Below, piece by piece: positions 1 through 52,672 of a stretch of DNA of 64,000 bases (the stretch's first letter is position 1; every line of letters starts with the position of its first letter). The notes below the pieces were generated by a model. The model was given only the letters and a program-made list of their open reading frames with translations. It searched no databases and had not been told where the DNA came from. Position numbers and translations under genes: made by a program. The stretch comes from Amycolatopsis bartoniae (GTDB taxonomy: Bacteria; Actinomycetota; Actinomycetes; Mycobacteriales; Pseudonocardiaceae): contig NZ_JACHWH010000002.1 of assembly GCF_014191255.1 (NCBI RefSeq), forward strand, positions 62,001 through 126,000, in the 5' to 3' direction.

Positions 1-1572
1 CGCGAGCGGCAGGACGCCCGAGCCGAGCACGGTGTCGTGGAAGCCGCGGATGTCGAACCGCTCCCCCAGCGCCCGCTCGGCCTCGGCCCGCACGCGCTGG
101 ATCTCCAGGCGGCCCACCATGTAGGACAGCGCCTGCCCCGGCACGCCCGCGTACCGGTCGACCTCCAGCTCGATCTCCAGCGGCGCCATCGGCGTGTGCT
201 CACGCAGGTGGTCCACGGCCTGCTGGCGGCTCCAGCCCAGCGCGTGCAGCCCGGTGTCGACGACGAGCCGCCCGGCGCGCAGGGAGTCCATGGTCAGCAT
301 GCCCAGCCGCGTCAGGTCGCTGGAGTACAGCCCCATCTCGTCGGCCAGCCGCTCGGCGTAGAGACCCCAGCCCTCCAGGTAGGAGTTCACCGGGGCGATC
401 TTGCGCAGCAGCGGGACGCCGTCGAGGTTCATCGCGCTGGTGAGCTGGAAGTGGTGCCCCGGCACGGCTTCGTGAAAGGCGACCGCCTCGCTCGTGTGCC
501 GGAACCGCTCCTCGGCGTGGTGGGTGTTCGCGAAGTAGGTGCCCTTGCGGGTGCCGGCGAAGTCGGGCTGCAGGTAGTACGCGATCGTGCCGCTGTCGGC
601 CTCGGCCGCCGGCACCGGCCGTACCTCGCACGGCTCGTCCGGCACCGTGCGGAACCACTGCGGCGCCACGGCTTCGGCCTTGCGGATCGCCGAGCGCGCG
701 CTTTCCAGCAGCTCCTCGCCGCTGTGCCAGCGCAGCGCGGGATCGGTGCGCAGCCGGTCGAAGATCTCCGGCAGCTCGGAGGTCCCGAACACGCGCGAGC
801 CCAGCTCGCGGTACTCCTCGGCGAGCTGGTCGATCAGCCGCAGCCCGGTCTCGTGCAGGTCCTGCGGCGTGCGGTCGGTGGTGGTGTGCACCCGGACGAG
901 CCGCGCGTAACGCTGCTCGCCGTTCGGCTGCCAGCACAGCCCGGGCCGGTCCTCCCCCAGCGCCCGCGGCGACAGCTCGTCGAGCAGGAACTCGCGGTAG
1001 CGCGCGAACGCCGGGCGCACCACGTCGGCGAGCAGCGCCTCCTGGCGGTCCACAAAGGAATGTCCGGGAATGTTGAGTGGGTCCGACTCCGGGTGGTCGA
1101 GGTACCGGCCGAGCAGGTCGGCACCCTCCCGGACCAGGAACCCGGGCGGCGTCGCGCCCCGCTGCCGCCCCGTCACGGCGTCCAAATAGGACGGAATCTG
1201 CGCGAGCCTCGCCACGTGCCCCGCCGCCCGCTCCTCGTCGGCCAGTGTGACCTGGGGCAACAGGTTCAGCAGCATCAGCCCCGGCGCGGACAGCGCGTCG
1301 CTGACGGAGAACTCGACCTCCGCGGCGTCGATGAGGTCCACCGCCGCCCGGGCCTGCTGCACGACCACGCCACGCGTGACAGGATCGCCCTGCGCCGACT
1401 CCGCGGCGGCCGCGAGGTCGTTGTAGCGGGCACGGAACCGTTGCGCTGCCTCGTTTCCCGGGTCCGGGAGCCGGTCGTGGTCGCCGGGCAGGCTCAGCAG
1501 CGAGGGCCAGAGCGGGTTCTCGGCGAACCACGTCTGGACGAACTCGTCGGCGAGCTCCTCGACCTCGCTCAT
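1..1572 (-). CDS. DUF885 family putative metallopeptidase, C-terminus cut by window edge
   Basis: Reading the reverse strand from ATG at 1572 (MSEVEELADEFVQ...) gives 524 open codons to the window edge, so the C-terminus is missing. A HEAVPGHHFQ motif (HExxH-type zinc site of DUF885 proteins) lies in the second half, followed by LEGWGLYAERLADEMGLYSS with the conserved E-G-W-x2-Y. The protein is clearly paralogous along its whole length to the gene just upstream (1735-3384). The ATG overlaps the stop of the second mini-ORF (ATGA), so translation is probably coupled. No signal peptide is seen, so a cytoplasmic peptidase is inferred. The substrate is unknown. Confidence 0.85.
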   Translation of the reverse strand, partial: MSEVEELADEFVQTWFAENPLWPSLLSLPGDHDRLPDPGNEAAQRFRARYNDLAAAAESAQGDPVTRGVVVQQARAAVDLIDAAEVEFSVSDALSAPGLMLLNLLPQVTLADEERAAGHVARLAQIPSYLDAVTGRQRGATPPGFLVREGADLLGRYLDHPESDPLNIPGHSFVDRQEALLADVVRPAFARYREFLLDELSPRALGEDRPGLCWQPNGEQRYARLVRVHTTTDRTPQDLHETGLRLIDQLAEEYRELGSRVFGTSELPEIFDRLRTDPALRWHSGEELLESARSAIRKAEAVAPQWFRTVPDEPCEVRPVPAAEADSGTIAYYLQPDFAGTRKGTYFANTHHAEERFRHTSEAVAFHEAVPGHHFQLTSAMNLDGVPLLRKIAPVNSYLEGWGLYAERLADEMGLYSSDLTRLGMLTMDSLRAGRLVVDTGLHALGWSRQQAVDHLREHTPMAPLEIELEVDRYAGVPGQALSYMVGRLEIQRVRAEAERALGERFDIRGFHDTVLGSGVLPLA

Positions 1573-9075: not shown

Positions 9076-9112
9076 GATGCCTCCTCGGCGGTCCAGGGGA
9101 CCCCGGAGGGCC
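9076..9112 (-). promoter_or_regulatory. SAM-IV expression platform with possible SD sequestration
   Basis: Between aptamer and ATG 9075 the transcript reads GCCCTCCGG ... CCGAGGAGGC. These two stretches are complementary, and the second contains the Shine-Dalgarno GGAGG. A small GGTCC/GGACC hairpin lies between them. There is no T-rich terminator, so translational rather than transcriptional control is inferred. Confidence 0.55.
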
Positions 9113-9223
9113 CGCGCTTGCCCACCGCACCTCGCGACGGGCCAGGTCCTCACCCGGGGCACCCCACCGCGGTTGGAGGGTTGCCGGCCAGCAAGCCGGG
9201 GCTTCGCGCTGGCACTCATGACC
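9109..9223 (-). ncRNA. SAM-IV riboswitch aptamer
   Basis: The reverse strand reads GGTCATGAGTGCCAGCG, then AAGCCCCGGCTTGCTGGCC, GGCAACCCTCCAACCGCGG, GGGGTGCCCCGGGTGA and finally GCAAGCGCGGGCC. This is a near letter-for-letter match to the actinobacterial SAM-IV aptamer core, with SAM-I-like P2-P3 elements and a 3' pseudoknot strand. It lies directly upstream of the class V aminotransferase. It should lower expression when S-adenosylmethionine is abundant. Confidence 0.93.
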
Positions 9224-38455: not shown

Positions 38456-38484
38456 GACCACCCCCTGTTCGCCCTTGCAGAAAA

Positions 38485-38578
38485 CGGATGCCGTCAGGTC
38501 CCCGCCCGCCCGCTGCGGACCTGGTGCCGGGGAAGGTGCACCAGGGCCGCTGAGCGGACAGAGGCCTCACGGCATCCG
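38485..38578 (-). ncRNA. mraW RNA motif upstream of rsmH
   Basis: On the reverse strand CGGATGCCGT (38578-38569) pairs perfectly with ACGGCATCCG (38494-38485), closing a multistem structure. Inside are a CCTGGTGC/GCACCAGG hairpin and a GTCCGCT/AGCGGGC-type helix. Position in the mraZ-rsmH gap of an actinobacterial dcw cluster matches the mraW RNA family. The ligand and mechanism of the family are unknown. Confidence 0.75.
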
Positions 38579-38645
38579 AGTTCATGTCGTCCTCACACCG
38601 GCTCCCGCGCCCCCCGACGGCGTGGGCACCGGCTTCACCGCACGT

Positions 38646-51621: not shown

Positions 51622-51651
51622 TTGCGAGCGGCCCCCGGGCAGGCATAACTT
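51622..51651 (+). promoter_or_regulatory. Promoter of the structured 51.7-kb transcript
   Basis: TTGCGA (51622-51627), an 18-bp spacer and TAACTT (51646-51651). It starts just downstream of nei2, giving a predicted start near 51658. Confidence 0.5.
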
Positions 51652-51682
51652 GGCAGTACACGAGAAAGGAGGTGGTCCGAAG

Positions 51683-51721
51683 TTGATTAACTACAGGACT
51701 CGTGAGGTGGCTGTCCGCTAG
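51683..51721 (+). CDS. 12-codon leader ORF
   Basis: TTG 51683 opens a 12-residue frame, (L/M)INYRTREVAVR, with TAG at 51719. The exceptionally strong SD-like block ends 4 nt before it, and its GGAGG core is about 10 nt away. The stop lies inside the first palindrome, a typical leader-peptide arrangement. Translation is inferred only. Confidence 0.45.
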   Translation: MINYRTREVAVR

Positions 51722-51853
51722 CGGACCGAAGCTGCGAAAAAGCTCGTGACGGCGGGTGCCGTCACGAAGTGCCGCCCTCCGTCGACCGCCGCCCGGCGTC
51801 CGGAGGCGCGACAGGACAGTAGAGGCCTGCGAGCGAATACCAGGCAGTCCCCG

Positions 51854-51935
51854 GACCCCCGGCGTCCCGAGCAAGTCCGGCTCGGGCCGGCAACGGCTGA
51901 CGACGTTGCCGGAAAGCACGCCGGGGGTCTTCCTG
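51854..51935 (+). terminator. Three-way-junction terminator
   Basis: GACCCCCGGCGT (51854-51865) pairs perfectly with ACGCCGGGGGTC (51918-51929). It encloses CCCGAGC/GCTCGGG (51866-51872, 51880-51886) and CCGGCAACG/CGTTGCCGG (51887-51895, 51904-51912), and is followed by TTCCTGTTTC. Confidence 0.7.
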
Positions 51936-52114
51936 TTTCGGACGGAAAACCGATCCGGACTTCCCGCTTTCCGGAAAGCGCAGGCGTTTCTGCCGCAATT
52001 ACCGTCACTCCCGCGGGTGATGTTGCCGCACCGACCCGGCTTTTCCTAACACTTCGGTACTTCCCTTCCGGAAGCTTCCTGACGAGGCCCCTGCCTGCGG
52101 CTACGCTGCTGCCT

Positions 52115-52672
52115 GTGCTTCAGCCCACATATCCACTGAAGACGCCGCGGCTGATCCTGCGGCCGTTTACGAGGAACGACATCACGGCGTTCCACGCGAT
52201 TTATTCGCATCCGGAAGTCGTCCGCTTCCTGCTGTGGGAACCGCACCGGCGCACCGAAAGCCGGCAGCTGCTGGAGAAGAAGGCGGAGCACACCACCCTC
52301 ACCCGTCCCGGCCAGACGCTGTCCCTCGGGATCGAGCTCGTCGAGACCGGCGAGCTGATCGGCGACGCTTCGCTGACGTGGGCCAGCCACGAGCACGGCA
52401 CCGGTGAGATCATGATCATCCTGCACCCCCGGCACCACGGGAAGGGCTACGCCGCCGAGGCCGCGACGGAGGTGTTCCGCCTCGGCTTCGACGAGCTGGG
52501 GCTGCACCGCATCTTCGGCCGGTGCGACCCGCGCAACATCGCGTCCGCGTCGCTGATGGAGGGCCTGGGCATGCGCCAGGAGGCCCACCTGCGCGAGGTC
52601 GAGCGCGTGAAGGGCGAATGGACCGACGAGCTGGTGTACGCCATCCTGGCCACGGAGTGGCAGAAGAGCTGA
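52115..52672 (+). CDS. GNAT acetyltransferase (RimJ/RimL type)
   Basis: A 185-residue acetyltransferase: [20 protein letters not shown] opens it, the acetyl-CoA loop is [20 protein letters not shown], followed by [20 protein letters not shown]. Likely N-acetylates a protein N-terminus or small amine; substrate unknown. GTG 52115 lies 7 nt after TACGCT (52102-52107). Longer in-frame starts would run through the structured RNA. Confidence 0.88.

Follow-up and report, generated by a model that had tools for sequence, protein, structure and literature searches.

The Ms_IGR-5 small RNA of Amycolatopsis bartoniae combines complementarity to the whole 16S rRNA tail with a short conserved reading frame and a fold that may be gated by translation

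The window analysed here, a stretch of 64,000 nucleotides (nt) from Amycolatopsis bartoniae (contig NZ_JACHWH010000002.1, positions 62,001 to 126,000), encodes a member of the small RNA (sRNA) family Ms_IGR-5. Positions 51658-51936 of the forward strand, on which all elements of the RNA described below are located, match the Rfam model RF02471 over its full length (model positions 1-184) with 92.7 bits and an E value of 2.3e-19 (cmscan; gathering threshold 45). It is the only copy in the genome and, counted from the inferred transcription start at 51658, comprises 279 nt against the 184 positions of the model. The predicted fold of this region is more stable than that of every one of 100 shuffled versions (z -3.3). 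Sequence comparison gives good support to an architecture in which a Shine-Dalgarno (SD) element complementary to the entire 16S rRNA tail (SD1) is followed by a translated frame of 10-15 codons with an often weak start, most commonly TTG, and in which contacts can clamp this open reading frame (ORF) to the terminator domain, codons 5-6 through a pseudoknot and its end through a long-range helix (H1). This arrangement suggests that the fold of the RNA is controlled by its own translation, and we tentatively favour, with somewhat less than even confidence, a standalone, translated and structured sRNA that acts as a translation-gated switch. The transcript itself is not new, being a mostly single-copy sRNA of Rfam. 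The original prediction, made from the letters alone, had described the unit as unannotated; it was right to notice a unit and to offer an sRNA among its readings, and only partly right about the annotation. The second SD at the stop codon, H1, the pseudoknot, the known family and the range past the actinobacteria go beyond it.

SD1 (AGAAAGGAGGTGGTCC, 51663-51678) pairs with all 16 nt of the 16S tail GGATCACCTCCTTTCT through 15 Watson-Crick pairs and one G-U pair, as had been predicted. Among the positions of both strands of the window that passed a pre-filter for SD-like words, it is the strongest candidate for tail pairing, with -29.9 kcal/mol against -23.7 for the next, and in the 7.76-Mb assembly it is the sole site when one mismatch is allowed. 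The tail was taken from relatives because the species' own 23-contig assembly yielded no 16S gene; the exact tail is present in 21 of the 40 family genomes searched, a congener included, and the remaining 19, A. bartoniae among them, gave no match to it.

Conservation was assessed on 143 covariance-model matches, of which 141 were anchored automatically with the words GGAGGTGNT and GAGG[TC][GA], the second of which cost no row. Dereplication left 131 sequences, window included, a duplicate of the window (L002) being dropped. Two loci that the automatic anchoring missed and that were read by eye (L152, cut at a contig end, and L219) stand outside the 131; L219 has GGGGG in SD1 and still pairs at 16 of 16 positions. 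The phylum sample contributed 55 of its 57 matches as loci (30 + 25), the family sample 29 new loci of 46 matches, with 16 left out, and the class sample 24 + 35 new loci of 192 matches, plus those already in the set. At least 120 further loci (L032-L151) were found by a pattern that itself includes SD1 and GTGAGGTGGCTG, so they do not count towards the conservation of those words. Dereplication reduced the combined set of 251 sequences to 218, L097 being discarded for its short length.

Within the 131 sequences, SD1 pairs over 16 nt in 125, over 15 nt in five and over 12 nt in one. Among the 2096 SD1 alignment cells, 1835 are the exact complement, 255 are wobbles that preserve the pair as G-U and six break it, so that the pairing survives 255 of the 261 substitutions. 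All departures fall on the eight positions that had not been used for site finding (787 exact, 255 wobble, 6 breaking). Position -6, just outside the tail, is freer than SD1. This pattern, with A or G opposite U and an invariant G opposite C, is the trace expected of pairing with a fixed partner. A conserved, extended complementarity to the anti-SD tail, by which an RNA that sequesters 30S subunits would be recognized, is therefore present in Ms_IGR-5. A chance SD-like match was considered as well and rejected in view of the whole-tail pairing in 125 of the 131.

SD1 precedes the predicted 12-codon ORF (51683-51721; TTG start, TAG stop; (M)INYRTREVAVR), whose frame, start and stop are all conserved. 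In the first pass, 136 of the 141 anchored matches have a stop codon at +15 from the G that opens GAGGTG, compared with 0-2 of 141 at shifted positions; after correction, for which three mis-anchored rows (L176, L217 and L021) proved regular and two were read by eye, the spacing holds in 141 of 143. The dereplicated set uses TAG 104 times, TGA 21 times and TAA four times. TGG is absent from the stop site, where independent bases would give 16.9 (0 of 100,000 permutations, kinship ignored). A canonical ATG, GTG or TTG opens the frame in 114 of 141 matches, against four and none in the other two frames. Of the 129 dereplicated rows, 114 have such a start (56 TTG, 40 ATG and 18 GTG), and the other 15 carry, by inspection, a near-cognate CTG, ATT, ATC or ACG at the same place. 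ORFs of 12 codons prevail (95 of the 114), followed by 14 (10) and 13 codons (9), with 11 and 15 codons as extremes in single loci. The pattern-found loci, on which the search had imposed the SD words, have a start in 119 of at least 120 and a stop in all those listed. The conserved translated ORF by which a dual-function, coding sRNA is defined is thus found, the frame by comparison and its translation by published mycobacterial ribosome profiling (Ribo-seq; PMC4974804, which like the other articles named here is cited from extracts of its text). Two distant loci with weak matches, L224 and L227, were inspected separately: their TAG comes one base earlier and in another frame, the TTG start and GAGGTG are kept, and the peptide differs.

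The word GAGGTG (51704-51709) lies 9 nt before the stop codon and is invariant in the 131 dereplicated rows at fixed spacing; it still reads GAG GTG in a locus with 30% guanine plus cytosine (GC) content (L286). The 3' strand that faces it varies in part, some of this variation reflecting a bulged register. GAGGTG probably serves as a second SD (SD2), its spacing suited to a ribosome that is reading the stop codon. That stop is enclosed, as predicted, in the palindrome GTCCGCTAGCGGAC (51713-51726), recognized from sequence and folding, which competes with the end of H1.

H1 connects SD2 with a strand adjacent to the terminator. Its 5' strand GGTGGCTGTC (51706-51715) faces the 3' strand GGCAGTCCCC (51843-51852; GGCAGTCACC in the congener L177), before which sequences and alignments reveal a conserved GCGAATACC motif (51833-51841). 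Nine of the ten pairs are possible in the window, where H1 belongs to the minimum free energy (MFE) structure of 51658-51936 and not to that of 51622-51940. In the alignment the H1 cells are paired in 86.4%, against 25-57% when the strands are slid, and the covariation score is 0.317 against 0.153 for shuffled sequences (0 of 500; the shuffle null is not tree-aware), with five of the ten pairs beating all 1000 shuffles. Nine or ten of the pairs also form in the unconstrained MFE structure of 12 of the 16 relatives chosen for folding. The two strands of H1 thus covary. Less firm than H1 is the pseudoknot, which would join GGACT in codons 5-6 (51696-51700) to AGTCC (51874-51878) in the loop at the tip of the first terminator hairpin (51866-51886). 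Of the 218 sequences, 26 lack a hairpin loop with RTCC and three more lack GGAY; in the remaining 189, the pyrimidine of the ORF and the purine of the loop form C-G 169 times, T-A nine times, T-G twice and C-A nine times. The loop is misplaced in four of the nine C-A rows (L006, L037, L160 and L233, another GTCC loop being present) and in one of the nine T-A rows (L204). H1 and the pseudoknot are both absent from the consensus structure of RF02471. The terminator itself was seen as predicted, with a 12-bp stem (51854-51865 and 51918-51929, sequence and folding) that encloses the first and a second hairpin (51887-51912) and is followed by a T-rich tail. In relatives the SD block, the ORF and the compensatory stems are conserved, the outcome on which the original prediction had made its case depend.

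The GGAY of the ORF has a second possible partner in SD1, and the extended SD1 may be explained solely by such a hairpin. Its RTCC is Watson-Crick paired with GGAY in 173 of 189 sequences (1 of 2000 shuffles); the terminator loop nevertheless tracks the ORF somewhat better (178 of 189, 0 of 2000 shuffles). For a covariation test of the SD1 hairpin, the 131-row alignment offers too little variation.

In the switch that we favour, a 30S subunit would be captured very efficiently through its whole 16S tail, and translation of the short frame would open H1 and the pseudoknot. At the stop codon the terminating ribosome would linger and exit slowly, because SD2 would re-pair with its 16S tail while the stop codon occupies the A site. 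Ribosome occupancy would then set whether the 3' strand (GGCAGUCACC, anti-SD-like) and the GUCC loop are hidden in a clamped form or free in an open form. The RNA would serve as a readout of initiation capacity and could act in trans, with the freed 3' half as its effector, or by retaining ribosomes. The gating and the target of Ms_IGR-5, like the binding and stalling of 30S subunits, are what we infer from this arrangement.

The peptide could instead be the functional product, with Ms_IGR-5 being a micro-peptide gene or a dual-function sRNA. Most of the encoded peptides end in T-x-E-V-A/T-x-x, the frame and its C-terminal residues recur in loci of Spirochaetota and Zixibacteria, and at codons 3 and 4 the amino-acid similarity exceeds a nucleotide-shuffle null (0 of 300, kinship ignored). 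However, GAG GTG shows no synonymous change, not even in an AT-rich genome, and the most conserved part is therefore constrained as RNA. Residues 2-4 vary widely and the two loci with a displaced stop would encode other peptides. This explanation is considered unlikely.

A similarly unlikely alternative, placed slightly behind, regards the RNA as a ribosome trap, a translational counterpart of 6S RNA in which SD1 captures 30S subunits and SD2 retains them, biasing initiation away from SD-led mRNAs, and in which the ORF only places the ribosome. The whole-tail complementarity and the fixed spacing of SD2 agree with such a role. Since L224 and L227 keep the order of SD1, short ORF, SD2 and stop despite another frame and peptide, ribosome placement rather than the peptide may be what is conserved. 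Yet a single-copy gene would have to reach very high RNA levels for the titration of ribosomes, and H1 and the pseudoknot would be superfluous.

Still less probable is a conventional trans-acting sRNA, whose G-rich SD1 and SD2 or C-rich loops would pair with other RNAs and bind ribosomes incidentally. Rfam files Ms_IGR-5 as an sRNA, and its standalone unit with a terminator amid non-conserved neighbours conforms to this description; the choice of stop codons, the start codons and the in-frame length changes argue for translation, as do the published ribosome footprints (PMC4974804).

Finally, the original prediction had also raised a leader, a reading now disfavoured. A leader or attenuator of the GNAT acetyltransferase gene (52112-52669) is highly improbable: this gene follows on the same strand in the window and its GNAT domain was found, but a strong terminator intervenes, and in 136 loci with rough gene calling the downstream genes vary with the lineage and the next one detected lies on the opposite strand in 81.

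According to Pfam, the unit is located between this gene and a formamidopyrimidine-DNA glycosylase-type (Fapy/Nei-type) gene, and it has the intergenic, standalone position and the terminator-like stem expected of RF02471. By the same rough gene calling, neighbouring genes differ between lineages and the gene cluster seen most often directly downstream (31 loci) has the opposite orientation; within the flanks compared, the Nei-type gene is upstream in the window and in ten other loci, several of them titled Amycolatopsis. Since the neighbours vary by lineage, Ms_IGR-5 is a unit of its own, and a leader role is not supported, since no same-strand gene is conserved downstream. A phage element was also considered and rejected, as the one pattern used had no matches in viral contigs. 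The candidate promoter of the original prediction holds in part. Its -35 element TTGCGA (51622-51627) and its -10 element TAACTT (51646-51651), both read by eye, are separated by 18 nt. TANNNT occurs in a narrow range of distances before SD1 in 114 of the 131 sequences, and T occurs more often than any other base at the first two -35 positions (54% and 57%); a strict scan for the sigma-70 consensus did not detect TTGCGA-18 nt-TAACTT.

RF02471 matched 46 of 60 genomes of the family, 192 of 296 of the class and 57 of 296 of the phylum, the genome of A. bartoniae included each time. A model built here (R1), partly from such genomes, raised the phylum count to 110 of 296. The title of the Rfam family limits it to actinobacteria, and the copies found here go beyond that range. 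Among the 80 titled records listed, two are non-actinobacterial by title, a Zixibacteria and a Spirochaetia metagenome-assembled genome (L062:603-757, forward strand, and L076, about 1090-1286, reverse strand). R1, which contains both, matched nine of 392 genomes in the phylum of L076, L076 itself included; homologues are also listed as L283-L292. RF02471 detects nine of the ten non-actinobacterial loci at E values up to 0.03, one of them above threshold. In all ten, SD1 pairs at 14-16 of 16 positions, a start codon opens the frame, and GAGGTG and the stop keep their spacing. The spirochaetal SD1 departs from the actinobacterial complement at one or two of 16 positions. Contamination from high-GC actinobacteria is disfavoured because the GC content of these loci ranges from 30 to 66%. 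In the spirochaetal H1 a change in one strand is accompanied by a change in the other (GGTGGCTGA with TCAGACCACC, GGTGACTCT with AGAGCATCACC, each bulged), and the pseudoknot, with loops placed by eye, reads GACC/GGTC in five copies, GACT/AGTC in three and GACT/GGTC, with a wobble, in L286. The Zixibacteria copy has no such pseudoknot loop. It is possible, if doubtful, that Ms_IGR-5 is the actinobacterial part of a class spanning Actinomycetota, Spirochaetota and Zixibacteria, whose members would capture ribosomes through the entire 16S tail, lead them over 10-15 codons, hold them at the stop with a second SD and sense their occupancy through a terminator-docked fold, either as the translational equivalent of 6S RNA or by sensing initiation capacity directly. 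In six of the spirochaetal copies (L283, L285, L286, L287, L289 and L290) the second terminator hairpin contains the word GCAGTCGCT. The genomes G425 (with RF02471) and G224 (with R1) each gave two matches rather than a single one.

Several known systems resemble parts of this arrangement. SgrS/SgrT, Spot 42/SpfP and RNAIII are dual-function sRNAs with a small ORF, and share with Ms_IGR-5 a short frame within a regulatory RNA; in contrast to theirs, the Ms_IGR-5 frame has 10-15 codons, follows a whole-tail SD at the 5' end and itself becomes part of the folded 3' domain. The pseudoknot of the rpsO mRNA together with S15 entraps the 30S subunit on a folded mRNA, as is proposed here for a fold holding 30S through SD pairing and a pseudoknot, but Ms_IGR-5 is standalone, not the leader of a ribosomal protein, and has no known protein partner. 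The frameshift site of prfB carries an internal SD near a stop codon. Both have an SD-like element able to pair with a ribosome that reads a stop; in Ms_IGR-5 the spacer to the stop is 9 nt, and a conserved overlapping downstream frame was not seen, though no systematic search for one was made. With 6S RNA and mycobacterial Ms1 (PMC10454040) the likeness is an analogy only, that of an RNA capturing a core machine, which for Ms_IGR-5 would be the ribosome and not RNA polymerase.

Transcription of the family is documented in Streptomyces and M. smegmatis. Extracts of earlier studies report ribosome-protected reads on the MS_IGR-5 homologues of two mycobacteria, M. abscessus and M. smegmatis (PMC4974804), RNA sequencing support for the transcript in S. 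lividans (PMC8079986), where the copy of strain TK24 bears the annotation SLIV_16488, an sRNA unit in S. avermitilis (PMC8780764) and an overlapping sRNA in M. smegmatis (PMC10454040). The open-access literature searched contains no description of its function, and extracts of PMC11133741, PMC5521070, PMC3828370, PMC4895711, PMC8628891, PMC11188477 and PMC4633059 have no bearing on it. The conserved ORF, the 16S complementarity, the contacts and the wider range are likewise undescribed there; the founding paper (PMC3527728) lay outside that scope and may hold an earlier remark on the ORF. As far as this literature goes, the whole-tail complementarity, the short frame, SD2, H1 with the pseudoknot, and the range beyond actinobacteria are new. 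Comparison reveals a tightly organized, ribosome-engaging build in a widespread sRNA that is filed as actinobacterial and non-coding, and an extension of the Rfam entry RF02471 in structure and range is indicated. If the proposed switch were true, it would be a new way to couple an RNA fold to initiation capacity. SD1, SD2, H1 and the pseudoknot are concrete elements that can be tested in tractable Streptomyces.

Three further features were noted on the reverse strand of the window. A terminator-like hairpin with a T run (51743-51768) lies opposite the extra middle part of the window's sRNA, and matches to a SAM-IV riboswitch (9109-9223, 112.8 bits) and an mraW RNA (38476-38583, 73.3 bits) are located elsewhere.
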